The notes under the pieces: generated by a model
The model's database searches: none
Told to the model about the DNA's origin: nothing
What the model saw: the letters and a program-made list of their open reading frames with translations, nothing else
Shown: piece by piece, positions 7,026 to 30,451 of the stretch
Layout: the number at the start of each line of letters is the position of its first letter
How positions within the stretch are numbered: the first letter of the stretch is position 1
Source of the DNA: Candidatus Pelagibacter sp.
GTDB lineage: Bacteria > Pseudomonadota > Alphaproteobacteria > Pelagibacterales > Pelagibacteraceae
Direction: 5' to 3'
Assembly: GCA_028224115.1 (NCBI GenBank)
Contig: JAOIVP010000006.1
Coordinates: forward strand, 1-34,196
Length of the DNA stretch: 34,196 bases
Translations under genes and position numbers: made by a program

Positions 7026-7759
7026 GCCATATACATGCCCCCATTAACATGCAATGTTTCCCCATTTATATAATTAGATTGATCTGAACTTAAGAATAAC
7101 ACAGCATTTGCAATATCATCAGGCTCTCCAAGACGAGCTGATGGTATTTTCGATACTATAATCTCTTTAAACTTATCATCAATTTTGTCTGTCATTGCTG
7201 TTTTAATAAATCCTGGCGAAATACAATTTATATTGATATTTTTCTTTGCATATTCTATCGCAAGACTTTTAGACATAGCAACAATTCCTGCTTTTGACGC
7301 TGTATAATTAGCTTGCCCTAAATTACCAGTATGGCCAACAACCGATGTAATATTTACAATTTTTCCAGATTTATTTTTAAGCATTTTTTTAATAGCAAAT
7401 TTACTCATTAAGAAAGTTGAAGTTAAATTAATATTTATAACTTTTTGCCATTCATCTAAGCTCATTCTAATTGCAAGATTGTCTTGAGTTATACCAGCAT
7501 TATTAACCATACCATCTAAACTTCCACCTAATTCAATTGTTGCATTTTCAATAAATTCCTCAATTTTATCACTTTGAGATATATCAAATTTTAATATTTT
7601 AATGCCTTCAAAATTTTTTTTAAGTTCTTCTAGTTTTTCAATTCTAGTTCCAGAAGCTATAATATTTGCTCCTGCTTCATTTAACCTTTTAACTATTGCA
7701 TTACCTATTCCGCCAGATGCACCAGTAACAATGATATTTTTTTTTTTTAAATCTCTCAT
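7022..7759 (-). CDS. fabG: 3-oxoacyl-ACP reductase FabG
   Basis: NADPH-dependent short-chain reductase of the fatty acid elongation cycle. Length is 245 residues, standard. The N-terminal cofactor site is TGASGGIG; NNAGITQDN follows, the catalytic Ser-Tyr-Lys are in NITSVVGHTGNLGQANYTASK, and the end LHVNGGMYMA is typical. It starts four bases inside the end of fabD (ATGA-type overlap), so the two are translationally coupled, and acpP follows. Confidence 0.97.
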   Translation of the reverse strand: MRDLKKKNIIVTGASGGIGNAIVKRLNEAGANIIASGTRIEKLEELKKNFEGIKILKFDISQSDKIEEFIENATIELGGSLDGMVNNAGITQDNLAIRMSLDEWQKVININLTSTFLMSKFAIKKMLKNKSGKIVNITSVVGHTGNLGQANYTASKAGIVAMSKSLAIEYAKKNININCISPGFIKTAMTDKIDDKFKEIIVSKIPSARLGEPDDIANAVLFLSSDQSNYINGETLHVNGGMYMA

Positions 7760-8682
7760 ATTTTTAAACCTTCAATATCTCCTTGATTATTTATAGTATT
7801 AATTTTTACTTCTCTATTAATTCTTTTAACTAAACCAGATAAAACTTTCCCTGGTCCAATTTCAATAAAATGATCAACATCAGTATTAATCATATTAATT
7901 ATACTTTCTCGCCATCTAACTCTATTTTCTATCTGTTTGATTAATAATTCTTTTAGCTCATCTGTATTTGAGATTTCTTTAGCGGTAACATTTGAAATTA
8001 GTTTATTATTACCTTGATTAAATCTTAGTTTATTTAACTCTTTACTCATTATCTCTGTTGCTTTACTCATTAAACTACAGTGGAATGGAGCACTTACTGG
8101 TAGCTTAATATTTTTAATAGAATTATCTTTTAAAATTAAAATTAATTTATCTAAATCATCTATTTTGCCACTTAAAACTATTTGACCTTCGGAGTTATCA
8201 TTTGCAATTTGAGCTTTAAAGTTTTGGTCATTATCTTTTAATATTTTTTCAATCATCCCAACTGTTGAGCCTAAAACTGCAACCATACCCCCCTCTCCTT
8301 TTGGAACAGAATTTTGCATAGCATCTCCTCTTATTCTTAAAATTTTTAATGTGTCTGAAAAACTTAAATACCCAGCACAAGATAAAGCAGAATATTCACC
8401 TAATGAGTGTCCAGCAAAATATTTTGCTTTATTAAGATCAATATTAAATTCTTTTTTTATGACATTGAAAATTGAGTAACTAATTAGAAAAATTGCAGGC
8501 TGAGTATTGGTAGTTAGGTCCAATTCTTCTTTAGGACCCTCTAATATTAGCTTTGAAAGTGAAAAATTGAGTTTTTCATCAGCTTCTTTAAATAAATTTT
8601 TAACATGATCAAACTTGTCATAAAATTCCTTTCCCATTCCAACTATTTGAGAACCTTGACCTGGAAAAATTACTGAAAACAT
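7756..8682 (-). CDS. fabD: Malonyl-CoA:ACP transacylase FabD
   Basis: Moves malonyl from CoA to acyl carrier protein, supplying fatty acid elongation. Length is 308 residues, normal. FPGQGSQ lies at the N-terminus, the nucleophile elbow is in AGHSLGEYSAL, the Arg region is RIRGDAMQ, and the catalytic His is in VSAPFHCSLM. It is first in the fabD-fabG-acpP-gmk operon. Its start faces rpsF across 87 bases, so both promoters should lie in that gap. Confidence 0.97.
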   Translation of the reverse strand: MFSVIFPGQGSQIVGMGKEFYDKFDHVKNLFKEADEKLNFSLSKLILEGPKEELDLTTNTQPAIFLISYSIFNVIKKEFNIDLNKAKYFAGHSLGEYSALSCAGYLSFSDTLKILRIRGDAMQNSVPKGEGGMVAVLGSTVGMIEKILKDNDQNFKAQIANDNSEGQIVLSGKIDDLDKLILILKDNSIKNIKLPVSAPFHCSLMSKATEIMSKELNKLRFNQGNNKLISNVTAKEISNTDELKELLIKQIENRVRWRESIINMINTDVDHFIEIGPGKVLSGLVKRINREVKINTINNQGDIEGLKI

Positions 8683-8708
8683 ATAAAAAAAACTATTTAT
8701 TTCGCCTT

Positions 8709-8737
8709 TTTAACTATTGTAATTGAACATTTATAAT
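8709..8737 (+). promoter_or_regulatory. Likely promoter of rpsF-rpsR-rplI
   Basis: A perfect -10 box TATAAT (8732-8737) lies 33 bases before the rpsF ATG. A weak -35 TTTAAC (8709-8714) precedes it at 17 bases. An alternative pair is TTGTAA with TATATC a little downstream. This is the only gap between the divergent fabD and rpsF genes. Confidence 0.5.
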
Positions 8738-8769
8738 AGTATATCCTCACTTTTTATTAAAGAACTTAA

Positions 8770-9123
8770 ATGAATTTATACGAACATACTATTATTGCCA
8801 GACAAGATGCTTCTCCGAGTGAAATTAAGCAATTAACAGAAAAATATTCTAAAATTGTTGAAAAATTTGAAGGTGAGATTGTTAAAACTGAAAATTGGGG
8901 TTTACTTGACCTGTCTTATTTAATCAAGAAAAATAAAAAAGGGAGCTACATTCACTTTAAGATTAAGAGTAAAGGCAATGTTATTGATGAACTAGAAAAA
9001 AATGAAGCAATTGATAAAAAATTATTAAGATATCTTACTGTTAGAGTAAAAAAATTTAATTTAGAAGAAAATTATTTTATAAAAAAAGATTATGATGACA
9101 AAAAAGAAAGTAATAAAAACTAA
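8770..9123 (+). CDS. rpsF: 30S ribosomal protein S6
   Basis: Small-subunit protein of the platform that binds S18. It is 117 residues with the typical start [19 protein letters not shown], then the conserved [15 protein letters not shown] and GSYIHFKI, and a Lys-rich tail. It is first in the rpsF-rpsR-rplI operon, two bases before rpsR. I saw no S6:S18 autoregulatory leader; the leader is probably under 30 bases. Confidence 0.96.
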
Positions 9124-9125
9124 TT

Positions 9126-9398
9126 ATGCCAAAGAGACAAAGTGGAAATAAAAAAGGTAAACAAAGTAATTTTGCAAAGCTAAGCATTTTTCAACCAAAT
9201 AAATACAAGTTCAAAAAAACTTGTCCCTTATCAGCTAAAGGTGCTCCAGAAGTTAATTACAAGAATGTTAGACTTTTAAAAAAATATATGTCTGAAAATG
9301 GTAAAATTTTACCTTCAAGAATTACAAATGTTTCACAAAAGAAACAGAGAGAATTATCCCTTTCAATCAAAAGAGCTAGAAATTTAGCATTAATATAA
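9126..9398 (+). CDS. rpsR: 30S ribosomal protein S18
   Basis: Small-subunit platform protein, partner of S6. Length is 90 residues. It has a basic N-terminal extension ([14 protein letters not shown]), the central region [19 protein letters not shown], and the conserved end [27 protein letters not shown]. It sits two bases after rpsF and one base before rplI. Confidence 0.97.
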
Positions 9399-9399
9399 A

Positions 9400-9858
9400 A
9401 TGAAAGTTATTTTACTAGAAAACGTAAAAAGAATTGGTTCTATCGGCGAAGTGATAGAAGTTAAAAGAGGTTATGCAAGAAATTTTCTAATTGCCAACAA
9501 AAAAGCATTATACGCTTCAAAAGAAAATATTTCAGAAGTTGAAAAGATAAAAGCAGATTTATCAAAAAAAGATAATGAAAAGAAAAAAGAGGCGACACAA
9601 ATTTCAGAGCAAATTAATAGTAAAGAGTACGAAGTTAAAAAACTAAGTACTGAAAATAACGAATTATATGGTTCAGTTAAACCAACTGAAATTGCAAAAC
9701 TAATTCAAGAAAAAAATAAAATTGATATCAAGCCATCAATGATTCAACCAATTAAAGAAATTAAATCTTTAGGAAAATTTAAAGTAAAAGTTTCTTTACA
9801 CTCTGAAGTTGATGCTGAAATTACAGTTAACGTTACTTCAGCAGATACAATTCAATAA
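9400..9858 (+). CDS. rplI: 50S ribosomal protein L9
   Basis: Large-subunit protein with two RNA-binding domains joined by a long helix. Length is 152 residues, normal. The N-terminal signature appears as MKVILLENVKRIGSIGEVIE followed by VKRGYARNFL. The connecting helix is Lys/Glu-rich (about residues 45-75), and the C-terminal domain has LYGSVKPTEIA and the end KVKVSLHSEVDAEITVNV. It is last in the ribosomal operon; I saw no convincing hairpin terminator in the 68 bases before dnaB. Confidence 0.98.
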   Translation: MKVILLENVKRIGSIGEVIEVKRGYARNFLIANKKALYASKENISEVEKIKADLSKKDNEKKKEATQISEQINSKEYEVKKLSTENNELYGSVKPTEIAKLIQEKNKIDIKPSMIQPIKEIKSLGKFKVKVSLHSEVDAEITVNVTSADTIQ

Positions 9859-9926
9859 TTATACATTCTTTTCCCCAAGCTTTAATAGTAATTTTATTTA
9901 AAAGATAATTCTGTAAACTAGACTTT

Positions 9927-11345
9927 ATGGAAAACAATTTAAGCATCGTCAAAGATCAATTTAAAGAATTACCTAATAACATTGAAGCAGAACAGGCTGT
10001 TATAGGCTCCATATTAGTTAGTAATGATATATTTGATGAAATTAGCACAATAATTTCAAGTATTAATTTTTATGACCCAATGCATCAAAAGATTTATGAG
10101 GCAATCGAAAGCTTAGTTTATAAAGGAATGTTAGCGAACCCTATTACACTTAAAAATTATTTTGAAGATGAGAAAGATGATTTAAATGTTCCAGAATATC
10201 TAGTCAAAATTACAAAATTTTCTACATCAGTTCGACAAGCAGTTGAATATTCAAAAATAATCTATGATATGTTTGTAAGACGTGAATTAATTAAAATTTC
10301 CGAACAAACAATCGATAGTGCAAAATTAAATGAGTTAGATACTAATGGTCAAACCATTATTGAAAATTCAGAAAGACTATTATTTGATTTAGCAGAAAAA
10401 GGTTCGTTCAATTCTTCACTGGTTAAATTTGATGAAGCCATGAAACAAACCATTGAGATGGCATCTGCAGCTTATAAAAATGAAGAAGGTATTGTTGGAG
10501 TACCAACAGGACTTAGAGATTTAGATGATAAACTTGGTGGCCTTCATCAGTCAGATTTAATTATTATTGCAGGACGTCCATCAATGGGTAAAACATCTCT
10601 TGCAACAAACATTGCATTCAATGCTGCGCAAAAATTACAGGAAAGTGGTAAAAAATCTTCTATAGCTTTCTTTTCATTAGAGATGTCTTCTGAACAACTA
10701 TCTACAAGAATTATCTCAGAACAGGCCCGTATAAGTTCAAATGATATTAGAAGAGGCAGAATTTCAGATGAACAATTTGATAAATTTTTAGAAACTTCAA
10801 AAAATATAGCCGAACTTCCATTGTATATTGATGAAACACCAGCGATAAGTATTGCTGCAATGAGTAATAGAGCTAGAAGAATAAAAAGATTATTTGGTCT
10901 TGATATGGTTGTGGTTGATTATATTCAATTAATGAGAGGAACTACATTTAACAAAGATGGAAGAGTTCAGGAAATATCACAAATCACACAAGGATTAAAA
11001 GCGATTGCAAAAGAATTGGCAGTTCCAGTTGTTGCTCTATCACAACTTTCGAGACAAGTTGAACAAAGAGATGACCATAAACCTCAATTGTCTGATTTAA
11101 GAGAGTCTGGTTCAATTGAACAAGATGCTGATGTTGTAATGTTTGTTTATAGAGAAGGATATTACTTATCAAGAAAAGAGCCAAGAGAAGCAACTGTTGA
11201 GCATGCTGAATGGCAAGCAAAAATGAATGAAGTTGCACACTTAGCTCAAATTATTATTGGAAAACAACGACACGGACCAATAGGTAATGTAACCCTTGAG
11301 TTTGAAGAAAGATTTACGAAATTTAAAGATACTCAAATTAATTAA
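9927..11345 (+). CDS. dnaB: Replicative DNA helicase DnaB
   Basis: Hexameric 5'-3' helicase that opens the replication fork. It is 472 residues with an N-terminal helical domain (PNNIEAEQAVIGSIL), a linker, and the RecA-like ATPase domain: VGVPTGLRDLDDKLGG, Walker A AGRPSMGKTS, FSLEMSSEQLSTR, Walker B region VVVDYIQLM, PVVALSQLSRQVEQR, and LRESGSIEQDADVVMF. No intein is present. In many alphaproteobacteria alr and radA come next; here an exporter gene follows. Confidence 0.97.
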   Translation: MENNLSIVKDQFKELPNNIEAEQAVIGSILVSNDIFDEISTIISSINFYDPMHQKIYEAIESLVYKGMLANPITLKNYFEDEKDDLNVPEYLVKITKFSTSVRQAVEYSKIIYDMFVRRELIKISEQTIDSAKLNELDTNGQTIIENSERLLFDLAEKGSFNSSLVKFDEAMKQTIEMASAAYKNEEGIVGVPTGLRDLDDKLGGLHQSDLIIIAGRPSMGKTSLATNIAFNAAQKLQESGKKSSIAFFSLEMSSEQLSTRIISEQARISSNDIRRGRISDEQFDKFLETSKNIAELPLYIDETPAISIAAMSNRARRIKRLFGLDMVVVDYIQLMRGTTFNKDGRVQEISQITQGLKAIAKELAVPVVALSQLSRQVEQRDDHKPQLSDLRESGSIEQDADVVMFVYREGYYLSRKEPREATVEHAEWQAKMNEVAHLAQIIIGKQRHGPIGNVTLEFEERFTKFKDTQIN

Positions 11346-22576: not shown

Positions 22577-23062
22577 ATGCCTACATTTGATGTAATCAGT
22601 AAAATCAATTATCAAGAATTTGATAACGCTCTTGCTAATTGTTTAAGAGAGATTAGCAATCGTTATGACTTTAAGGGACTTAATATCTCTATTGAACGAA
22701 AAGATAAAACTATCACAACACTTGCTACAGATGATCTAAAATTAAAGCAAGTAAATGAGTTGTTAGAAACCCACCTTGTAAGAAGAAAAGTAGACCCTAG
22801 AGTATTAAGTGTTAAGAATTCAGAAGGCGCAACTGGTGGAACCATTAGACAAGTAAGTGAATTAAAAGAAGGAATAAGCCAAGAAAATGCTAAAAAAATA
22901 ATTGGAGATATAAAAAAACTTAAACTTAAAATCCAAATCAAAATTCAAGGAGAAGAATTACGTGTAGATGGAAAGAAAAGAGATGATCTTCAAGAGGCAA
23001 TTGCTGCAATTAAAACAATAGATATCGGCCTTCCAATTGAATTTATTAATTTTAGAGATTAA
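22577..23062 (+). CDS. yajQ: YajQ family nucleotide-binding protein
   Basis: Small protein of 161 residues (DUF520). The family is conserved, and some members bind cyclic di-GMP. Landmarks: MPTFDVISKINYQEFDNAL, ISNRYDFKG, LRVDGKKRDDLQEAI, and the end GLPIEFINFRD. It marks the conserved chromosome on the left of the cassette region: the first copy of the ACTAG element begins 18 bases after its stop. Confidence 0.93.
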   Translation: MPTFDVISKINYQEFDNALANCLREISNRYDFKGLNISIERKDKTITTLATDDLKLKQVNELLETHLVRRKVDPRVLSVKNSEGATGGTIRQVSELKEGISQENAKKIIGDIKKLKLKIQIKIQGEELRVDGKKRDDLQEAIAAIKTIDIGLPIEFINFRD

Positions 23063-23079
23063 GTAGGTTTAAGCAACAA

Positions 23080-23131
23080 ACTAGAGACCCTATTAGAGAC
23101 TTTTGAGACAAATCAATTACCTGTTTTTAAG
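23080..23131 (+). promoter_or_regulatory. ACTAG-pair element, copy A (before the aminotransferase)
   Basis: First of seven related elements. Half-sites ACTAG (23080) and ATTAG (23092) are 12 bases apart, then TTGAGA (23103-23108) and an AT-rich -10-like stretch 17 bases later (23126-23131). The run TTTAAGCAACAAACTAGAG is shared exactly with the copies before hydrolases 2 and 3, so this is the same element at the left edge of the array. Confidence 0.6.
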
Positions 23132-23170
23132 TAGTTGGACTCATGGTTCAGTATTTGTTAGTCTTGGATT

Positions 23171-24073
23171 GTGAGTGATATTTTTCCAAAAGGTTCGGCA
23201 TGGATGAACAGTGAATTCATTCAACTTTCTGAAGCAAAAATTCCTATTTTAGATTGGGGGTTTTTAAGATCAGATGCAACATATGATGTTGTCCATGTTT
23301 GGAAAGGTAGTTTTTTTCAATTAGATAAACATATTGATCGTTTCTTTAAATCAACAGAAAAACTTAGAATGCCATGCAGACTTAGTCGTGAAGAAATAAA
23401 AAGAATATTAGCAGGCTGTGTTAAAAAAGCTGATCTCGAAGATTCTTATGTCGAGATGATACAAACAAGAGGAATGTCTCCAAATTTTGTTAGAGATCCT
23501 CGTAAAGCGACACCACGCTTTATGGCTTTTGCAGTACCCTTTGGCTGGATACTTAGGCCAGAAGATTTTGAAAAAGGATTAGATGTATATTTAACTGATA
23601 TAACAAGAATTCCTCCAAGTTCAGTTGACCCAACAATTAAAAATTATCATTGGATGGATTTAGTTACGGGTATGCTTGATGCGTATGACAGAGGACATCA
23701 TACTGCTATATTAGTAGATGAAAATAACAATGTATCTGAGGGACCTGGCTTTAATATTTTTTCTGTTGATGAAAATGGAATTAATACACCAGACCATGGA
23801 GTATTAGAAGGTATCACAAGACAAACTGTTATTGATTTAGCTAAAGAACTGAATATCAAAGTTAATAAAAAACCCATAACAATTAAAATGCTAAAATCAT
23901 CTGAAGAGTTGTTTGCAACTTCAACAGCAGGAGGTGTGATGCCAATAACAAAAATTAGTGGAAAAAATATTAATAAAGGAACTGTGGGAGATATCACAAG
24001 AAAAATTCATAAAGTCTATTGGGACAAACATTCTGATCCTAATTGGAGCACATCTATAAAAGAGATAAAATAA
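23171..24073 (+). CDS. Class IV PLP aminotransferase (BCAT / D-amino acid type)
   Basis: PLP-dependent aminotransferase of fold type IV, 300 residues. The PLP lysine is Lys157 in PTIKNYHWMDLV; the cofactor-binding Glu190 is in VSEGPGFNIF; LEGITRQTV and the end motif LFATSTAGGVMPITKI are typical. It may act on branched-chain amino acids, D-alanine or 4-amino-4-deoxychorismate; the sequence does not decide. The start is GTG 23171, with MSDIFPKGSAWMN as N-terminus. It follows a copy of the ACTAG element, and 13 bases after its stop comes the first truncated copy of the small gene, as if the two once formed an operon. Confidence 0.88.
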   Translation: MSDIFPKGSAWMNSEFIQLSEAKIPILDWGFLRSDATYDVVHVWKGSFFQLDKHIDRFFKSTEKLRMPCRLSREEIKRILAGCVKKADLEDSYVEMIQTRGMSPNFVRDPRKATPRFMAFAVPFGWILRPEDFEKGLDVYLTDITRIPPSSVDPTIKNYHWMDLVTGMLDAYDRGHHTAILVDENNNVSEGPGFNIFSVDENGINTPDHGVLEGITRQTVIDLAKELNIKVNKKPITIKMLKSSEELFATSTAGGVMPITKISGKNINKGTVGDITRKIHKVYWDKHSDPNWSTSIKEIK

Positions 24074-24086
24074 GAAATAGGTCAAT

Positions 24087-24155
24087 GTGAATAAAGAAAA
24101 CGCAAGTAAACTCTGGAAAATGATACAGGAAGCTGGCGATTATTTACGGAGTTAG
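24087..24155 (+). pseudogene. Truncated copy 1 of the small gene (22 codons, GTG start)
   Basis: Starts like the full protein at 29179 (NKENASKLW, QEAG, YLR) but then reads Ser and TAG. The start codon here is GTG; other copies use ATG and TTG at the same place. It lies 13 bases after the aminotransferase stop and has no ACTAG element directly before it, so it would be read from the aminotransferase transcript. It may be a scar of cassette insertion or a translated 22-residue leader peptide. Confidence 0.75.
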
Positions 24156-24160
24156 CAGGA

Positions 24161-24200
24161 CAACCTAACCCACACTAACCTACACTATTCTACAGTACTT
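24161..24200 (+). repeat. 10-base-period ACACTA array, copy 1
   Basis: Four degenerate 10-base units begin six bases after the truncated ORF stop. The cores at 24162, 24172, 24182 and 24192 read ACCTA, ACACTA, ACACTA and ACAGTA. Period 10 is about one helical turn, so all cores face the same side of the DNA. It is the most diverged of the three arrays. Confidence 0.6.
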
Positions 24201-24263
24201 ATGTAGGTAATTAAAAATTAACTTAAAATAAATCACTTAAAGACTCATCAATTTAAAAAACAA

Positions 24264-24315
24264 ACTAGGACAAAAACTAGAACTTTTTGAGATAAATCAA
24301 ATAGTCAATTCTAGA
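24264..24315 (+). promoter_or_regulatory. ACTAG-pair element, copy B2 (hydrolase 1 promoter)
   Basis: ACTAG at 24264 and 24276 (12 apart), TTGAGA at 24287-24292, then 17 bases to TCTAGA (24310-24315), 21 bases before the hydrolase ATG. An alternative -10 is GATAAA, just after the second half-site, in the style of PhoB/OmpR promoters whose direct repeats replace the -35. Confidence 0.55.
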
Positions 24316-24336
24316 AGTTTTTGATAACATTTTATT

Positions 24337-25755
24337 ATGAAAAAACTTTTAGGGATCCTGGTTCTGTTTTTGTTATGGTGCAATATTAGTTTTGCAGATG
24401 ACAAACATTTAGATGATTTTAATCAGTGGCTCTTTGACAATAATTATCATCAATATGTAAGTTTAAATGAAGATGAATGTGCAGGATGTAGTGACTATAG
24501 TACTAGAAAAGTTGAAAACTGTTTTGACAAAGATGGTCCCAAAAAACAATGCTGGATAGAGGGTGATGGTGTAGGAGTTGGGGAAGGTAAATGGAAAGAA
24601 GTTGATTCTAAATATAAAAATAATCTTAAAATTAAAATTTATAAAAATAGATGGAGTATGCCATGGGACGCAAAACCAAACATGGATACATTGCTTTATT
24701 ATTTTTATAAATATCAACATAGTCATAATGTTAAAGGATCTAGAACTAAAAAATGGGATTGGTATGAGGCTAAGCCCTCAGGTAATTTTTTTAAATTTAA
24801 ATCTAATTTGAAAGAGGACAAGTACATTAAAAAACAAATGAGCAAAACTGCCATGCTCAGTTATATACTTTATGAAGACGGTAAAATCACTATTGATGAA
24901 ATATCACCCAAAGATCGATTTGGTAATTTTGTAAATAATGAAACTAAATTAAGATCTATGTCTGTTGGTAAGACTATGGTTTCCTATGTTATGGGACATG
25001 CTATTTGTAAAGGATATATAGGCAGTATCGATAGTACTTTAAATGATTGGGATCTGGCAAACAATACTCTTTATAAAAATCAAAAAATAATTGATCTATT
25101 AAATATGGCAGCTGGAGATCAAAAATATGTTTATACATCTGATTTTAAAGATGGGGGTGATACTGACACTATAACAGCTAAAGAGGCAATGAAAAAAATG
25201 TCGAACAAAAAAAAATCTAAATCTATGTACAACTACAATGGTCTATTACCTCATTTATTAATAAATTATATTTTATTTAAGTCAGGTGATGATTTTGAAA
25301 ACTTATTAGAGGATATTTTTCAAAATGAAGCAAAAATAAAACATAGTGTATATTTTTTTAAACATCCTAAAACTCGCAAAGATGAAGGGAATGCCAATAG
25401 TATGTTTTTTGCTACAAGATATGACTATCTTCGTATTGCAAAAAGTATGCTTGATGATTGGCAAAACGATACATGTTTTGGAAAATATTTAAAAACTATT
25501 CATGAAAGAAGAATTCCAAAAAATGATAAATGGAAAGATACAAAAAGTTCATTTTTTAATCCAACTGCATATGCTGGTTTTTTTCATACTAATTATTCAG
25601 GTATGAAGAAAAGAGCTGTTTTAGGAATGGATGGTTTCGGTGGACAACAAATAATCATAGATTTTGATAGATCTAGAATTGTAGTGATAAATTCTATACA
25701 TCAAAATTATAATTGGAAAAAAATAGCTCACTCTGTAATTAAAAAAGGTAAGTAA
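24337..25755 (+). CDS. Secreted serine hydrolase, beta-lactamase/penicillin-binding fold (paralogue 1)
   Basis: Predicted exported hydrolase of 472 residues. The signal peptide is MKKLLGILVLFLLWCNISFA with cleavage likely before Asp21. The serine-hydrolase Ser-x-x-Lys is S209-V-G-K212 (RSMSVGKTMVSYVMGHAICKG). The usual Tyr-x-Asn region is around Tyr300 (YNYNGLLPHLLINY), but the third residue is Gly where paralogue 2 has Asn. Four Cys in an N-terminal insert (about 48-72) could form disulfides. The C-terminal part (FFHTNYSG, GMDGFGGQQIIIDFDRSRIVVINSIH) holds the family's last conserved Gly-rich strand. It is closely related to the next hydrolase, and both end on the same residues (AHSVIKKGK). 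Substrate unknown; antibiotic resistance is not implied. Confidence 0.8.
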   Translation: MKKLLGILVLFLLWCNISFADDKHLDDFNQWLFDNNYHQYVSLNEDECAGCSDYSTRKVENCFDKDGPKKQCWIEGDGVGVGEGKWKEVDSKYKNNLKIKIYKNRWSMPWDAKPNMDTLLYYFYKYQHSHNVKGSRTKKWDWYEAKPSGNFFKFKSNLKEDKYIKKQMSKTAMLSYILYEDGKITIDEISPKDRFGNFVNNETKLRSMSVGKTMVSYVMGHAICKGYIGSIDSTLNDWDLANNTLYKNQKIIDLLNMAAGDQKYVYTSDFKDGGDTDTITAKEAMKKMSNKKKSKSMYNYNGLLPHLLINYILFKSGDDFENLLEDIFQNEAKIKHSVYFFKHPKTRKDEGNANSMFFATRYDYLRIAKSMLDDWQNDTCFGKYLKTIHERRIPKNDKWKDTKSSFFNPTAYAGFFHTNYSGMKKRAVLGMDGFGGQQIIIDFDRSRIVVINSIHQNYNWKKIAHSVIKKGK

Positions 25756-25767
25756 AATTTTAGATTA

Positions 25768-25824
25768 ATGAAAAAACTTTTATGGATCATCGTTCTGGGT
25801 TATAGGATTTTATGGAACAACTAG
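25768..25824 (+). pseudogene. Signal-peptide stub of a lost hydrolase
   Basis: The first 33 bases match the hydrolase starts (MKKLL, then VLG), closest to paralogue 3. The frame then runs into the TATAGGATTTT start of the R1 element and stops at TAG after 18 codons. No R2 promoter lies before it; it follows the hydrolase 1 stop by 12 bases. It looks like a deletion that joined a signal-peptide start to the downstream R1 element and removed the gene body. Confidence 0.65.
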
Positions 25825-25871
25825 GACAAGAACTAGAACTTTTTGAGATGTTTCAAGGTTTGAGGTAGTAT
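25820..25871 (+). promoter_or_regulatory. ACTAG-pair element, copy C1 (before truncated copy 2)
   Basis: ACTAG at 25820 and 25832, then TTGAGA (25843-25848) and TAGTAT 17 bases later. That -10 would overlap the ORF start at 25870, so transcription from it would begin inside the ORF; a closer -10 would fit better. The first half-site overlaps the stop of the signal-peptide stub. Confidence 0.5.
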
Positions 25872-25938
25872 GAACGAAGATAACCGGCGTAAACTGTGGA
25901 CTTTGATACAGGAAGCCGGCCTTTATTTACGGAGTTAG
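25870..25938 (+). pseudogene. Truncated copy 2 of the small gene (22 codons, ATG start)
   Basis: Same length and end (LYLRS, stop) as the other two truncated copies, but the most divergent: MNEDNRRKLW, with Lys to Glu, Ala-Ser to Arg-Arg and Lys-Met to Thr-Leu changes in the middle. The frame is fully open and the core RKLW...IQEAGLYLR is kept. The changes look like a different allele more than random decay, which fits import of this unit from another strain. Confidence 0.75.
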
Positions 25939-25940
25939 AG

Positions 25941-25980
25941 GTACACACTACCTCACACTAGCTCACTCGACCTTACACTA
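25941..25980 (+). repeat. 10-base-period ACACTA array, copy 2
   Basis: Four 10-base units; units 1, 2 and 4 end in ACACTA, and unit 3 is degenerate (ends CTCGA). There is one unit more than in the copy before hydrolase 3, so the unit number varies between otherwise 95% identical flanks. Confidence 0.75.
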
Positions 25981-25982
25981 GT

Positions 25983-26022
25983 TATGCGGACTATTTATCT
26001 TTCATTAAAAATAAATCGCATA
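25983..26022 (+). repeat. Imperfect inverted repeat (TATGCG ... CGCATA)
   Basis: TATGCG (25983-25988) and ATTTAT (25993-25998) pair with ATAAAT (26011-26016) and CGCATA (26017-26022). This leaves a four-base bulge and a 12-base loop. In the copy before hydrolase 3 (27701-27740) the stem is weaker. It could be a terminator-like hairpin for the truncated ORF or a protein-binding site. Confidence 0.5.
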
Positions 26023-26046
26023 CAGACTCATCAATTTAAGCAACAA

Positions 26047-26098
26047 ACTAGAGGATGAACTAGAGGATTTTGAGATAAATCAAATTGTCAATTATAGA
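26047..26098 (+). promoter_or_regulatory. ACTAG-pair element, copy C2 (hydrolase 2 promoter)
   Basis: ACTAGAG at 26047 and 26059 (12 apart), TTGAGA at 26070-26075, exactly 17 bases, then TATAGA at 26093-26098. This is the best sigma70-like pair in the family and puts the transcript start about 15 bases before the ATG at 26120. The half-sites lie just upstream of the -35, a usual place for an activator. Confidence 0.6.
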
Positions 26099-26119
26099 GG
26101 TTTTTGATAACATTTTATA

Positions 26120-27523
26120 ATGAAAAAGTTTTTAGGGATTTTGGCACTTAGTTTCTTATGGAGCAATATTAGTTTTGCAAATGATAGTTTTTTAGATGAT
26201 TTTAATGAATGGCTATCAAAAAATGGTCATTATAATTATGTAAATAAGACTAAAGTACCTGAAATTTGTAAAAAAGAAAAACGATACTCTTTTATATGGT
26301 ATTATAATAATTGTGATGAAATCAAATCAGAAAATACTTTAAATATTAAATTTTATAAATCAGGAGAAATACCTTGGGATGCAAATCCTAATAGAGATAC
26401 TTTACTTTATTATTTATTTAGATCTTTGGCAGTAGAAAATAGATATGACCAGGCTGGCTCTAAAGGATCAAAAAATCCTTATAAATTTAATACTGAATTA
26501 AGAGATGATAAAATTTCAAAATACATCAAAAAACATATGCAAGAAACGGCACTGCTTAGTTATTTGCTTTATGAAGATGGTAAAATTACAATTGATGAAA
26601 TAACACCAAAAGATCGACTCGGAATTTTGTATAAAGACTATACTCAGTTTACAAGTGCATCAGTAGGAAAAAGTATAGTTTCTTATGTTACCGGTCATGC
26701 AATATGCAAAGGATATATAAATGGAGTTGATCATAGACTAAATGATTGGCCATTATTAGAAAATACACTCTTTTATGATCAAAAATTAATAAATCTTTTA
26801 AACATGGCTACAGGTCATCAAAGGTACGCTGATTTTGATTTAAAAACAAAAAAATATAATAAAAATGGAAATGCAAACACCGTTGAATTTCACATGAAAA
26901 AAGGAGTTTTTAAAGACTCAAAAAAGGGAAAAAACAAATATCAATACACCAATGTTCTTAGCAACATTTTAATTAGTTATGTTCGGTTTAAATCTGAAGA
27001 TAAATTTCAAAATCTTTTAGATGAAATATTTATAGATAAAGCAAAAATTAAGAATGATGTGTGGTTTTTAAAAATGAACGACAGAACTGTTGAAATGGAT
27101 AATCGAAATAATACAATCTTGAAAGAATATAAAGTGAAAGATGAAGATGGTCTTTTAAGATATTCATTTAGAGCTTCAAGGTATGATTATCTAAGAATAG
27201 CTAAAGCAATGTTAGATGATTGGCAAAATGATACTTGTGTTGGAAAATATTTAAAAACTATTTATGAAAGAAGAATTCCAAAGAGACACGAATGGAAAAA
27301 TGATAAAGATCATGATCTAAACTCAAAAAGTTATGGAGGTTTTTTTCATACAAATTATTCGGGAATTAACTCAAAAAAAAGAAATGTTATGGGTATGAGT
27401 GGATATGGTGGTCAATCAATAATGATTGATTTTGATAAAGGTAGAATAAACGTAATTAATGCTATTCACACAAATTATAATTGGAAAAAAATAGCTCACT
27501 CTGTCATTAAAAAAGGTAAGTAA
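26120..27523 (+). CDS. Secreted serine hydrolase, beta-lactamase/penicillin-binding fold (paralogue 2)
   Basis: Exported hydrolase of 467 residues, paralogue of the preceding one. Signal peptide MKKFLGILALSFLWSNISFA. Catalytic Ser-x-x-Lys is S181-V-G-K184 in TSASVGKSIVSYVTGHAICK, and Tyr276-Thr-Asn278 (YQYTNVLSNILISY) gives a regular Tyr-x-Asn motif. Shared blocks with paralogue 1: LLSYLLYEDGKITIDEI, LINLLNMATG, SRYDYLRIAKAMLDDWQNDT, YERRIPK, and GGFFHTNYSG. The N-terminal insert between the signal peptide and the catalytic domain differs most. It is flanked by R2 upstream and R1 downstream. It is likely active on an ester, amide or peptide in the periplasm or outside. Confidence 0.82.
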   Translation: MKKFLGILALSFLWSNISFANDSFLDDFNEWLSKNGHYNYVNKTKVPEICKKEKRYSFIWYYNNCDEIKSENTLNIKFYKSGEIPWDANPNRDTLLYYLFRSLAVENRYDQAGSKGSKNPYKFNTELRDDKISKYIKKHMQETALLSYLLYEDGKITIDEITPKDRLGILYKDYTQFTSASVGKSIVSYVTGHAICKGYINGVDHRLNDWPLLENTLFYDQKLINLLNMATGHQRYADFDLKTKKYNKNGNANTVEFHMKKGVFKDSKKGKNKYQYTNVLSNILISYVRFKSEDKFQNLLDEIFIDKAKIKNDVWFLKMNDRTVEMDNRNNTILKEYKVKDEDGLLRYSFRASRYDYLRIAKAMLDDWQNDTCVGKYLKTIYERRIPKRHEWKNDKDHDLNSKSYGGFFHTNYSGINSKKRNVMGMSGYGGQSIMIDFDKGRINVINAIHTNYNWKKIAHSVIKKGK

Positions 27524-27530
27524 TGCTTTC

Positions 27531-27659
27531 TAGGATTTTGTAGGATAACTAGGTAAAAAACTAGAGGATTTTTAGATAAAACAAGGATTGAAATAGTTTG
27601 AACAAAGAAAACGCTAGTAAACTGTGGAAAATGATCCAGGAAGCCGGACTTTATTTACG
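27531..27659 (+). repeat. R1 block, copy before truncated copy 3
   Basis: 129 bases aligned without gaps to 29112-29240, with two differences (at about 27615 and 27646). Begins TAGGATTTTGTAGG, contains the ACTAG pair at 27548 and 27560, continues through the TTG start of the small ORF and ends at TTTACG, where the two copies part. That sharp end marks the presumed recombination junction. Confidence 0.88.
27548..27599 (+). promoter_or_regulatory. ACTAG-pair element, copy D1
   Basis: ACTAG at 27548 and ACTAGAG at 27560, followed by TTTTTAGATAAAACAAGG. GATAAA could be the -10, and AAGG then lies about 11 bases before the TTG start at 27598. A 17-base spacing would put TAGTTT on the start codon itself, so the nearer box is the better fit for this version. 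Confidence 0.5.
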
Positions 27660-27666
27660 GAGTTAG
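27598..27666 (+). pseudogene. Truncated copy 3 of the small gene (22 codons, TTG start)
   Basis: Protein identical to the first 21 residues of the full gene at 29179 (MNKENASKLW to LYLR), then Ser and TAG. Only two bases differ from the full copy over this stretch, both silent or first-position neutral (GCT AGT against GCA AGT; GCC against GCT). It was split from, or converted by, the downstream gene recently. Confidence 0.78.
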
Positions 27667-27670
27667 CAGT

Positions 27671-27700
27671 ACACACTAGCTCGCACTAGCTTACACTAGT
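27671..27700 (+). repeat. 10-base-period ACACTA array, copy 3
   Basis: Three regular 10-base units with CACTAG at 27674, 27684 and 27694. The cleanest of the three arrays. The ACTAG core is the same pentamer found in the 12-base-spaced pairs, so one DNA-binding protein could read both. Confidence 0.75.
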
Positions 27701-27837
27701 TATGCGGGCTATTTAACTTTCATTAAAAATAAATCCCATACAGACTCATTAATTTAAGCAACAAACTAGAGGATGAACTAGAGGATTTTGAGATAAATCA
27801 AATAGTCAATTATAGAGGTTTTTGATAACATTTTAGT
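27699..27837 (+). repeat. R2 flank, copy before hydrolase 3
   Basis: Second copy of the 139-base R2 block, aligned without gaps to 25981-26119. It reaches exactly to the ATG at 27838, although the two genes that follow have strongly different bodies. Confidence 0.85.
27765..27816 (+). promoter_or_regulatory. ACTAG-pair element, copy D2 (hydrolase 3 promoter)
   Basis: ACTAGAG at 27765 and 27777, TTGAGA at 27788-27793, 17 bases, TATAGA at 27811-27816, ATG at 27838. Same layout and nearly the same bases as copy C2. Confidence 0.6.
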
Positions 27838-29025
27838 ATGAAAAAACTTTTAGGGATTGTGGTTCTGGGTTTTATCTTAAGCAACACGTCTTCGGCTACA
27901 CCACCAAAACATCAATGGTCACCATCTATTGAAAAATGGAAAAAGATTTTTAAAAAAGTAGAGTACCCTCCAAACGACTGCAAGTATTGTACTGAGAGAC
28001 ATGATTATTGGGCCTATAACACCTATCGAAAGGCAAGTTTAAAAAATAGAGATTATAAAAATAATGGGGGTTTAAAAAAAATTATCATTAAACCTGCGAA
28101 AAGTAACTCAGTTAGAATTATAAAAAAAAATACCAAACCTCTTCCAAAAGAAATTTATGATTATGTATATTACAGAGATATATCTAGTCTAATGGTATTT
28201 GATAAAGGAGTGTTAATTCACGATTGGAAAAGAGATTATATTTTCAATGACAAACCTATTAACGGAGAGTCAAGAAGTAAGTCTATAGTTGGAATAGCAG
28301 CTATTAAAATGGCTTGCCAAAATATTTTAGATTTAAATAAAACACATGGTGAATATTCATCTGAAATTAAAGACTCATTTTATGGTCATGTTACATTAAA
28401 AGACTCTTTGAATATGCTTGCCAGAGATCAGTACGTTATTAACTATAATATTTTGAAGGAGACACATAGAAAAAAATCTGACTTAACCACTATACTAAAT
28501 AGACATCCTAAAAGATTAGAAACCGAAGGACCAAAAGAATTCAAATACTCAAATCCTAATACTGATTTAATAACATTAGATATGATAAATGTATTAGGAG
28601 GAAAAAAAAAGTTTGTAAAATGGTTTCAAAAAAATATTTCAGAAGCTGCAGGTTTTGCATCAAAGGGTAAGATTTTGTTAGATAAAAAGGAAGCTCCGAT
28701 TTCATCGTCGTCTATCATGCTTACAAGAGAAGATTGGTTAAGGTTTGGAATGTACGTTATTGAATTAATGAAGGATAAAAAATCTTGTGAAGCAAAAAAG
28801 TTGCGAGAAGCTTTTGAGAATGCTGTTCCCACAAAGAAAAAATTTGCTCCTAAATATGCAATGTTCTTTTGGCTAAATGGGTATGGTGTAGAAGATTTAG
28901 TTCAAATGAGAGGCCATGGTTTAAGACTATCTTTAATTGATTGGAAAAATGACAAAATAATTCAGACGAATGGTTTTGCTATTAGTTGGAAACCTCAAGA
29001 GTTAGTAAATCTTATTTGGAAATAA
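27838..29025 (+). CDS. Secreted serine hydrolase, beta-lactamase/penicillin-binding fold (paralogue 3)
   Basis: Exported hydrolase of 395 residues. The signal peptide MKKLLGIVVLGFILSNTSSA is nearly that of paralogue 1, but the mature protein is only distantly related to the other two. Catalytic Ser-x-x-Lys is S145-R-S-K148 in NGESRSKSIVGIAA; Tyr237-Ser-Asn239 (FKYSNPNTDLITL) gives a clean Tyr-x-Asn; SLMVFDKGVLIHDW and VQMRGHGLRLSLIDW fit the fold. Two Cys pairs are possible (Cys48/Cys51 near the N-terminus). A conserved promoter and signal peptide joined to a diverged body suggests cassette exchange downstream of the signal sequence. Confidence 0.82.
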   Translation: MKKLLGIVVLGFILSNTSSATPPKHQWSPSIEKWKKIFKKVEYPPNDCKYCTERHDYWAYNTYRKASLKNRDYKNNGGLKKIIIKPAKSNSVRIIKKNTKPLPKEIYDYVYYRDISSLMVFDKGVLIHDWKRDYIFNDKPINGESRSKSIVGIAAIKMACQNILDLNKTHGEYSSEIKDSFYGHVTLKDSLNMLARDQYVINYNILKETHRKKSDLTTILNRHPKRLETEGPKEFKYSNPNTDLITLDMINVLGGKKKFVKWFQKNISEAAGFASKGKILLDKKEAPISSSSIMLTREDWLRFGMYVIELMKDKKSCEAKKLREAFENAVPTKKKFAPKYAMFFWLNGYGVEDLVQMRGHGLRLSLIDWKNDKIIQTNGFAISWKPQELVNLIWK

Positions 29026-29111
29026 ATTACGTCACAGTTGCAGATAGAATTATTAAAAAAACTTTAAAAGAAATCTAGCTAGCCACGCCTCAGGCTTATT
29101 GAATATTGTTA
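29026..29111 (+). other. Intergenic stretch after hydrolase 3
   Basis: 86 bases between the hydrolase stop and the R1 block with no ORF. A short weak hairpin AGCC...GGCT lies at about 29079-29096, with no T-run after it, so it is not a convincing terminator. It has no counterpart after hydrolases 1 and 2, where R1-like sequence begins almost at once. Confidence 0.5.
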
Positions 29112-29240
29112 TAGGATTTTGTAGGATAACTAGGTAAAAAACTAGAGGATTTTTAGATAAAACAAGGATTGAAATAGTTTGAACAAAGAAAACGCAAGTA
29201 AACTGTGGAAAATGATCCAGGAAGCTGGACTTTATTTACG
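29112..29240 (+). repeat. R1 block, copy leading into the full small gene
   Basis: Second R1 copy (127 of 129 bases equal to 27531-27659), with the ACTAG pair at 29129 and 29141 and the TTG start at 29179. It gives the intact small gene its only visible promoter-like sequence. Confidence 0.88.
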
Positions 29241-29406
29241 CGGTCAGCTGCCCGACCACCCCAATCACCCAAAAGGGCGCAACCCCTATGCTCATGTTGC
29301 AATATGTGTGAAAGAACATTTTAAAAATAGTTACAAAGATATTCCTGATGAAAAATTTGATGAAGTTGTAGAATATATTGAATTTTTAAAACAAAATCCT
29401 AATTAG
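29179..29406 (+). CDS. Small protein, target gene of the cassette array
   Basis: 75 residues, cytoplasmic by appearance, from TTG 29179. I do not recognise it as a named family. The N-terminal half (NKENASKLWKMIQEAGLYLR) is what the three truncated copies repeat. The middle (GQLPDHPNHPKGRNPYAHV) is encoded by unusually GC-rich DNA (about 60% GC over 29237-29299) for this genome. The C-terminal part (NSYKDIPDEKFDEVVEYI) resembles the short end domain of some phage antirepressor-like regulators, where SYKDIP and a late Tyr-Ile recur; this likeness is from memory and weak. Start codons at this position vary among copies (GTG, ATG, TTG, TTG), which supports it as the true start. Its end overlaps the convergent threonine aldolase gene by 8 bases. 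Confidence 0.75.
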   Translation: MNKENASKLWKMIQEAGLYLRGQLPDHPNHPKGRNPYAHVAICVKEHFKNSYKDIPDEKFDEVVEYIEFLKQNPN

Positions 29407-30451
29407 AATTTTTTAAAGTCTCAAGTAATTGATCGACATCACTATCTTTAGTATTCCAAGCTGCAACTAATCTCACTGCTTTACCATCTAGTTCGTCTTC
29501 ATTCATTTTGTAACCTTCAGAATTTAAATGCTCGATCATATTTCTTGGGAATTTTGCAAAAACCTCATTTGCTTCTGTGGGATATGCTAATTTGATATCT
29601 GAATGATTATTTAATCCTTCACTTAATTTTTTTCCCATTTTATTAGCGTGTCTTGCATTTCTAAGCCATACATCATCTGAAATGTAAGCATCTAATTGAG
29701 CAGAAACAAATCGCATTTTTGATAGTAAATGCCCTGCTCTTTTCATTAAAAAAGCAATGTTACCAACCAAGTCTTTTTTAAAAAAAATTATAGCTTCTGC
29801 AGCTAAACAACCATTTTTAGTTGCACCAAATGACAATACATCAATACCTGATTTCCAAGTCATCTCTGCTGGAGTTGCATCTAATGATACCAAAGCATTT
29901 GCAAATCTTGCTCCATCCATGTGCATATTTAAATTATGTTTATGAGCAACATCTGAAATCTTTTTAATTTCTTCTAACTGATAAACCTCTCCACTTTCAC
30001 AAACTTGAGTAATGCTTACAGATGATGGCTGAGTATGATGCACAATTCCTTTTCCTCCAATAGCTTCATCTAATTCGTCGGCTGTTATTTTTCCTCTAAT
30101 TCCCTGTAGGGTAACAAGTTTTCCACCACCAGTATAAAATTCTGGAGCACCACATTCATCAGTATTAATATGAGATAGTTTGTGGCAATAAATATTGCCA
30201 AATGATGGTGTCATTGTTGATAAAGCTAATGCATTAGCTGCTGTTCCTGAGGCTGTTGGAAAAACAATTACTTCTTTTTCAAATATTTTAGAAAATTTAT
30301 CTTGTAACTCTGTTGATATCTGATCATTTCCATAAGGAGTGCTATCCCCTTCGTTTGCTTTAATAATTGCATCCAATACCTCAGGACAAGCACCAGCAAC
30401 ATTATCAGAAGCGAATTTTACTCGCTCTCTTTTTGTTTTAATTTTTGCCAT
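29399..30451 (-). CDS. ltaE: Low-specificity L-threonine aldolase
   Basis: PLP enzyme that splits L-threonine or allo-threonine into glycine and acetaldehyde. Length is 350 residues, normal. It has the family start KFASDNVAGACPEVLDAI, then YGND, FPTASGTAANALAL, the Asp179 region MHMDGARFANA, and the PLP lysine Lys212 in LSFGATKNGCLAAEA. It is last in a four-gene minus-strand operon, two bases after the amidinotransferase gene. SAR11 cells are known for unusual glycine needs, so a glycine-producing enzyme beside guanidino-compound enzymes is a plausible link. Confidence 0.93.
   Translation of the reverse strand: MAKIKTKRERVKFASDNVAGACPEVLDAIIKANEGDSTPYGNDQISTELQDKFSKIFEKEVIVFPTASGTAANALALSTMTPSFGNIYCHKLSHINTDECGAPEFYTGGGKLVTLQGIRGKITADELDEAIGGKGIVHHTQPSSVSITQVCESGEVYQLEEIKKISDVAHKHNLNMHMDGARFANALVSLDATPAEMTWKSGIDVLSFGATKNGCLAAEAIIFFKKDLVGNIAFLMKRAGHLLSKMRFVSAQLDAYISDDVWLRNARHANKMGKKLSEGLNNHSDIKLAYPTEANEVFAKFPRNMIEHLNSEGYKMNEDELDGKAVRLVAAWNTKDSDVDQLLETLKNSN

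Follow-up and report, generated by a model that had tools for sequence, protein, structure and literature searches.

A probable stack of integrase-less integrative cassettes at a small gene of SAR11 bacteria

SAR11 genomes are streamlined, and the route by which they gain flexible genes has been an open question. Here we examine a stretch of 34,196 nucleotides from Candidatus Pelagibacter sp. (assembly GCA_028224115.1, contig JAOIVP010000006.1, positions 1 to 34,196 of the forward strand; hereafter the window), in which truncated copies of one small gene alternate with other genes and a single intact copy closes the row. This array is very probably a stack of integrative cassettes that lack an integrase and that use the end of codon 20 in this small SAR11 gene as their bacterial attachment site (attB). 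Each cassette is bounded on both sides by the core; on its left are three to four 10-bp repeats, mostly with an inner arm site, and on its right are a paired arm site and then codons 1-20 of the gene with their upstream DNA. At filled sites the resident 5' end appears as a stopped remnant on the left, with the intact gene on the right, and the intact gene of the window would be a chimera, its codons 1-20 cassette-borne and its remainder resident. As read from the sequences, putative left, right, circle and bacterial attachment sites (attL, attR, attP and attB) with a common core can all be assigned, the pattern of an integrative element of the tyrosine-recombinase type.

Within the window, blastn with positions 29020-29406 as query returned three copies (E = 5.5e-19, 7.2e-24, 7.2e-62), values that exclude chance. 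All three read ...YLRS followed by a stop, and the match fades after TTTACG. An earlier note on this DNA had described three 5' copies that stop after TTTACG and only one last copy that reaches the full 75 residues, which we confirm. It had taken the repeated unit to be about 21 codons long; the copies are there, but the repeated block also includes about 70 bp upstream (the right end) and about 200 bp downstream, comprising the left end with its 10-bp repeats, the inner arm site and the DNA up to the cargo start.

To place these copies among relatives, we scanned genome contigs and took the best 80 of at least 521 confirmed loci, ranked by their similarity to the window protein. In 25 of the 80, between one and three additional 5' copies, each with a left end, stand before the intact gene; because the loci were picked by that similarity, this is no prevalence figure. 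Five of the 44 extra 5' copies first found were dropped before counting (L072 at 8033 and L080 at 2470, which have no left end, and minus-strand matches in L012, L040 and L050); with the window, the set comprises 26 arrays and 39 truncated copies. Compared with the intact consensus, these 39 copies match at 0.91-0.93 up to nucleotide 60 and at 0.19-0.22 beyond nucleotide 66, and since they were detected with a 66-nt profile, the match before nucleotide 60 is partly a product of selection, whereas the common break is not. The match is lost at nucleotides 60-66, window included, and the first stop is codon 23 in 37 of the 39, codons 10 and 15 in the remaining two. A model of the target protein (mean predicted local distance difference test score, pLDDT, 86) has three helices, the first of which (residues 3-20) is the duplicated part. 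The break falls at the start of a loop predicted with lower confidence (pLDDT 64 for residues 21-30 and 73 for residues 31-40), and a fold search with the 75-residue model gave no match at E <= 0.001. Residue 21 varies among 81 intact genes (DYLVGQL in 37, DYLQGQL in 17, DYLKGQL in 6, DYLRGQL in 5, and rarer forms), as a crossover at this residue would leave it.

Different cargo lies between remnants that break at the same nucleotides, and no left-end remnants are present in 55 of the 80 loci (L040 and L050, which are one contig, being counted twice). A right end was found in 7 of these 55 by profile, 8 by a repeat test and 11 by both combined; 44 look empty, yet L031, L053 and L073 are arm-like by eye. 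In relatives, yajQ stands directly 5' of either the intact gene or a remnant (L003, L019, L051), and empty sites have yajQ (L051) or a major facilitator superfamily (MFS) gene (L044) directly before the target gene. The pre-insertion order of yajQ, aminotransferase and small gene that had been proposed for the window is therefore not what relatives show.

Insertion at the intact gene predicts native upstream DNA at the leftmost copy and a cassette right end before every later one. Such a right end precedes 37 of the 39 later copies and 7 of the 26 leftmost ones (leave-one-locus-out profile; Fisher p 8e-9, on rows that are not independent), or 27 of 39 versus 7 of 26 by a cruder repeat test. 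The seven leftmost copies with a right end probably had older cassettes before them, with the left end lost or off the contig, and by eye the window joins these seven, as the last codons of its aminotransferase run into the partial right-end sequence AAAAGAGATAAAATAAGAAATAGGTCAAT. Taken together, the remnant-free loci, the varied cargo with the same break, the right ends before later copies and a possible agent elsewhere (below) support the earlier note's proposal that insertions struck the same fixed site again and again, and that each of them supplied a fresh upstream region, start and 5' end while a 5' remnant stayed behind. Other cargo between copies with the same break, which it had proposed to look for in relatives, and empty-looking sites were both found, while truncated copies as stable operon parts, a lack of empty sites or scattered break points were not found in the related loci.

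The ends of the cassettes behave as parts of one unit. After the break, the shared left end consists of three or four 10-bp tandem repeats, roughly YYCACACTAS; one unit is lost in window copy 3 and in L016, and L006 has one disrupted copy (8572). Right ends hold two repeats of about 11 bp, and a second such pair lies further in at most left ends. The inner left and right arms of the same cassette match at 0.77, as against 0.57 for shuffled partners (n=35; 0 of 20,000 shuffles as high), and at 0.77 versus 0.56 in the 26 cassettes left after de-duplication, the test being run without L014, whose two arms are one site, and three cassettes with unparsed arms. This pairing within cassettes implies that left end, cargo and right end form one unit, and it suggests that there may be several arm-specificity classes, like the arm-type sites of integrases. 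A hairpin in the cassette left end was considered and dropped, as RNAalifold gave no pair in 28 sequences. L014 (9774-10001) holds a 227-bp cassette of ends only, with no cargo, perhaps collapsed between its two arm sites.

Cassettes shared between genomes point to movement of such units. In the cassette common to L057 and L079, the cargo is 99.8% identical over 2108 bp, compared with 82.5% over 1327 bp for the 3' flank; there are six mismatches in 7649-10061, mismatches become dense from 10062 (nucleotide 62), and the block of identity ends at nucleotide 61. Cargo also exceeds flank, with less sharp borders, in L033/L049 (99.4 vs 93.0%) and L006/L019 (98.1 vs 93.4%). Extra neighbouring cassettes lie on the gene side in L045 relative to L033 (99.1% over 1704 bp, two more) and in L006 relative to L019, and the comparison of L003 with L013 agrees with gene-side growth, over a shared stretch of only 618 bp. 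The additional cassette of L079 lies on the side away from the gene, a position that fits the model if this insertion is the older one.

Cassettes are also found away from the target gene. L143 and L144 carry the same cassette at a place without it; this secondary site is uninterrupted in relatives L151 and L155 (TTAATG(T/C)GG-TGCTCTAAAC), while the junctions in L143 and L144 read TTTAATGTGG-AGTTAG and TTTACGG-TGCTCTAAAT, and Rfam gave nothing at the gathering score at the L143 site. Two further places, L141 and L142 (both in G227), have left ends with no intact target gene in the stretch read, one of them with several tandem cassettes, and no empty relative was read for either. In L139 a cassette lies between recA and alaS with GGGAAAAAAGGCGCTTAAATTA on both flanks, and this place is uninterrupted in 9 of the 9 relatives printed, with the exact 22-mer in three. 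The core of two circular contigs, L188 and L189, is exactly this recA-alaS 22-mer, and as the L139 cassette was already known when these circles turned up, they are an independent check of the model. Judged by their sequences, the secondary and recA-alaS sites argue for site-specific recombination.

The earlier note saw no recombinase gene and suggested, as one of two options, an agent acting from elsewhere. The 26 array segments (133,726 bp) contain no integrase (E <= 0.01) and no satellite gene (E <= 0.001), and integrase-bearing circles offer a possible agent. A core-sequence scan of IMG/VR found L089, a contig of 9070 bases whose ends overlap exactly by 29 bp and which carries, in order, a copy of the target gene's 5' end, left-end repeats and a 568-residue integrase (P0121), with further genes for a primase with AEP-TOTE and DUF5906 domains and a RusA-like resolvase. 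As sole query, the L089 integrase found only itself in IMG/VR, whereas an integrase alignment found five contigs including L089; the other four are 9.0-9.3 kb long, overlap at their ends by 77-120 bp and have matching genes in the same order. The exact terminal overlaps of L186 and L187 are 98 and 81 bp. In L089, L186, L187 and L104 (8864 bases, from one SAR11 genome, with no terminal overlap found), the target gene's 5' end stands beside the integrase as the core, that is, as attP; the circles thus have the core of the cassettes, uninterrupted, with similar arms. The inner arm site of these four contigs lies inside the first codons of the integrase gene, and the cassettes keep that site without the integrase. 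L090, also from IMG/VR, has a related primase region and an intact gene at a right end, as expected for an integrated element.

The integrase matches a PHROG integrase (E 8e-23) and has 354 relatives in the protein collection; the DUF5906 primase of L089 and L188 matches PF19263 (E about 1e-12), and none of the six 91-115-residue AlpA candidates tested matched Pfam at E <= 0.01. Neither the L089 integrase (as protein) nor its attP stretch (as DNA) matched any of 50,697 INPHARED phage records at the limits used, and the left-end consensus pattern, which was drawn from cassettes, hit 0 IMG/VR contigs. In a broader sample of 297 Pelagibacterales genomes, 32 contain left ends that score above 39 bits, a count made with strict filters on incomplete genomes, some of which supplied the model and two of which (G197, G185) hold secondary-site copies. 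Sister elements lie behind 5' halves of tRNA-Leu(TAA) in L094 (10314, 2538, minus strand), with one half and the intact tRNA gene, and in L095 (691, 6243, 9190), with three halves; L095 also encodes a protein closely like the cargo of L056.

Several observations weigh against a stack of mobile cassettes. A cassette's own right arm is the single best match in only 21 of 35 cases (17 of 26 de-duplicated), and arms are mismatched in the third cassette of L078, the first of L030 and the second of L003. Two of five long-shared pairs show no excess of cargo over flank identity (L003/L013, 99.3 vs 98.8%; L006/L063, 89.8 vs 90.5%). A consensus scan of 23000-29500 counted 29 promoter-like sites versus 35.5 +/- 7.1 in shuffles, and thus no excess, which lends no support to the new promoter that the earlier note had proposed for each insertion. 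The integrase reaches 26.0 bits with PF00589, just under the 27.1 cut-off, and matches no PDB sequence at E <= 0.01; its relatives are rare (6 of 397 genomes, three with long matches and one, L104, with this attP). None of the five integrase-bearing genomes checked combines integrase-less cassettes with an intact integrase: in G412 no left end other than the element's own is present, G137 and G173 lack left ends, and G007 and G248 have arrays with integrase fragments only. Finally, the cassettes share a left stretch and, on the right, TATAGGATTTTATAGGATAAC, both absent from the four attP contigs printed; because these two short shared stretches are missing there, the cassettes are not simple deletions of such contigs, and they look more like an old, separate lineage than like recent deletions.

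Homologous recombination or unequal crossing-over between the shared copies of about 60 nt and the ends, which needs no recombinase, is an improbable account of the array. The ends are alike enough for exchange, and the window hydrolases H1 and H2 (Table 1) are related, their DNA sharing blocks of about 71-84% identity. Arms are mismatched in some cassettes, what L003 and L013 have in common is limited to the left 618 bp of a cassette, and L014 resembles a collapse between two arm sites. Crossing-over does not, however, account for cassettes with no target gene nearby (L143/L144, L141, L142), one such site being empty in relatives, for an insertion between recA and alaS whose core is that of circles L188 and L189, or for circles with attP beside an integrase; as sole engine of growth, which the earlier note had entertained, it is contradicted by a secondary site without homology. 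The mismatched arms do make it probable that homologous exchange between ends adds to the shuffling. More improbable still is that the cassettes are moved, in the manner of Xer-using elements, by the one Xer/Cre-like recombinase that SAR11 chromosomes encode. One such recombinase (311-337-residue frames; L081-L088) occurs in 22 of 29 SAR11 genomes, outside the arrays in 19 of 24 array genomes and in 3 of 5 others; a serine recombinase (PF00239) occurs in 0 of the 29, and the only further PF00589 match in these genomes is a partial one in G016. Elements with the same attP nevertheless carry their own adjoining integrase, 0 of 8 recombinase neighbourhoods of about 3.5 kb have a left-end match, and arm-type repeats are not generally expected for Xer. 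The least credible alternative makes the truncated copies functional leader peptides or regulators kept for each cargo operon: the frame does run to the codon-23 stop in nearly all copies (37/39) and the full protein is predicted to form a helix over residues 3-20, but the remnants sit at cassette junctions, two copies stop earlier, and the stop lies in left-end DNA common to cassettes with different cargo.

For integrase-less cassettes inserting at the small gene, we can sketch a mechanism. The cassettes would derive from satellite-like circles in which cargo took the place of the integrase and replication genes and the cis sites persisted. They would be excised and inserted in trans by the integrase of a satellite that is resident or enters the cell, and satellites might perhaps be delivered in phage particles. 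New cassettes would enter at the intact gene, such that the array would grow on the gene side. We also lean, with some reserve, toward a broader proposal: that SAR11 bacteria have an integron-like mode of acquisition without integrons, in which cassettes with full cis sites are addressed by a satellite integrase of the matching arm class, satellites write genes for defence or secreted proteins into the genome, and each insertion repairs its target.

The cargo is varied, ranging from 0.5 to 8 kb per cassette. Pfam and PADLOC scans cover 71 of 84 cargo open reading frames (ORFs), with 25 of 65 and 25 of 189 families listed, and among the matches listed are type I, IIG and III restriction-modification proteins, TetR regulators and dehydrogenases; many further cargo proteins start with a signal-peptide-like leader. 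The leader DNA ATGAAAAAACTTTTAGGGATCGTGGTTCTGGG precedes different secreted cargo genes (window 24337, 26120, 27838) and also lies just before right ends; allowing up to 2 mismatches, it has 20 matches in 6 of 10 genomes, G022 among them, and a reversed-pattern control has 0. In the window, three secreted hydrolases had been named, an identity that is plausible from sequence though divergent: H2 has no PF00144 match at E <= 0.001 and 0 matches to PDB sequences at E <= 1, three of the 18 H1/H2-family proteins aligned match PF00144 (best E 7.5e-7), and H3 falls short of a firm match. A tblastn search (E <= 1e-5) found no relative of the aminotransferase or of the three hydrolases in the 80 related loci. 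The aminotransferase is probably the cargo of the oldest cassette, given the partial right end at its 3' end, the absence of relatives in those loci and the left-end relic before it, which has lost its remnant and 10-bp repeats and lies between yajQ and the aminotransferase. In L046, once among relatives, yajQ lies between two remnants, whole and behind a left end (1953-2810). L107 (8859-9278) has, also behind a left end, a fusion of an integrase N-terminus with the C-terminus of yajQ, which counts in favour of the cassette reading. In these two lineages yajQ may itself be old cargo.

Table 1. Layout of the cassette array in the window and its left neighbour
Feature	Positions	Strand	Remarks
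yajQ	22577..23062	+	left neighbour of array
Left-end relic	23068..23119	+	inner arm site, reads LSNKLETLLETFETNQ; from repeat search and blastn to other inner arm sites
Class IV aminotransferase	23171..24073	+	PF01063 E 7.4e-43
Truncated copy 1 of target gene	24087..24155	+	codons 1-20, stop at codon 23
Left end after copy 1	24160..24199	+	4 x 10-bp tandem repeats: ACAACCTAAC CCACACTAAC CTACACTATT CTACAGTACT
Inner arm site, cassette H1	24252..24303	+	
H1, putative secreted serine-hydrolase-like protein, cargo	24337..25755	+	ORF; homologous to H2
Right end, cassette H1	25800..25869	+	arm repeats match own inner arm site, 0.90
Truncated copy 2	25870..25938	+	
Left end after copy 2	25942..25981	+	4 x 10-bp repeats
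Inner arm site, cassette H2	26035..26086	+	
H2, putative secreted serine-hydrolase-like protein, cargo	26120..27523	+	S181, K184 invariant in family alignment
Right end, cassette H2	27528..27597	+	
Truncated copy 3	27598..27666	+	
Left end after copy 3	27670..27699	+	3 x 10-bp repeats, one unit fewer
Inner arm site, cassette H3	27753..27804	+	
H3, putative secreted protein, weakly beta-lactamase-like, cargo	27838..29025	+	PF00144 E 0.048; 6-aminohexanoate-dimer hydrolase E 9.7e-4
Right end, cassette H3	29109..29178	+	now 5' of intact gene
Intact 75-residue target gene	29179..29406	+	5358 relatives in protein search
Crossover region	29236..29244	+	nucleotides 58-66 of gene; end of helix 1 in model

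The route of gene gain suggested here would run through defined attachment sites and circular integrase-bearing donors, with cargo that includes restriction-modification matches, and gene acquisition in some of the most abundant bacteria of the ocean could be traced in reads through short junction sequences. In the open-licence literature, as far as its accessible text goes, we found no description of such SAR11 cassettes, sites or circles; most subscription papers lie outside this scope, and this is no proof of novelty. Among known elements, those of the SXT/R391 type in the 5' end of prfC supply a new 5' end and are large and conjugative, whereas here the cassettes are integrase-less and in tandem. 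Tycheposons of Prochlorococcus are cargo-bearing integrative elements with a tyrosine recombinase. The likeness lies in just these features and in streamlined aquatic hosts, but the elements here target the 5' region of a protein gene or the recA-alaS intergenic site. Where tycheposons have a tRNA border, the border here is a 75-residue gene, although sister elements L094 and L095 do sit at tRNA-Leu, and the recombinase expected within the element is found in the circles and in none of the 26 array segments.

Tycheposons have also been reported for Methylophilaceae, and the accessible text on the additive island of Methylopumilus, with its recurring last 20 bp of tRNA-Lys, likewise describes an array marked by a repeated piece of its target; there the target is a tRNA end, and the same text describes no integrase or circular counterpart (PMC10872708). 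For Pelagibacterales, the available sections of a 2025 paper report tyrosine recombinases and tRNA genes beside phnCDEubiE, a published sign of recombinase-linked gene gain in SAR11, but in those sections no cassettes, protein-gene remnants or circular elements are described (PMC12416821). A 2007 survey of SAR11 variable regions, in the excerpts available, reports no attC sites (PMC2217521), and for phosphate islands of the HIMB59 order the accessible passages favour homologous recombination for want of insertion sequence (IS) or tRNA borders (PMC10734472).

The circles resemble phage-inducible chromosomal minimalist islands (PICMIs) and virion-encapsidated integrative mobile elements (VEIMEs) as portrayed in the accessible part of PMC10803314: both are small, encode an integrase and a DUF5906 primase and have a circular form. 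The circles here have the integrase (by PHROG) and the DUF5906 primase, the cassettes do not have the integrase, and, relative to what that part describes, the circles differ in being 9 kb long, with a RusA-like resolvase and an AEP primase domain and with AlpA not detected. PICMIs integrate beside fis, whereas the cores here are the codon-20 or recA-alaS site. Packaging in virions, as for VEIMEs, would not follow from the presence of L089 and L186-L189 among IMG/VR contigs. The tandem arrangement resembles that of clusters of attC sites lacking integrases (CALINs), which, according to the accessible text of PMC11389934, are likewise tandem integrase-less cassettes and are moved in trans by an integrase encoded elsewhere. 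As far as that text describes CALINs and integrons, the arrays differ from both in that their cores are pieces of a chromosomal target with arm repeats, and that each cassette rebuilds the target gene.

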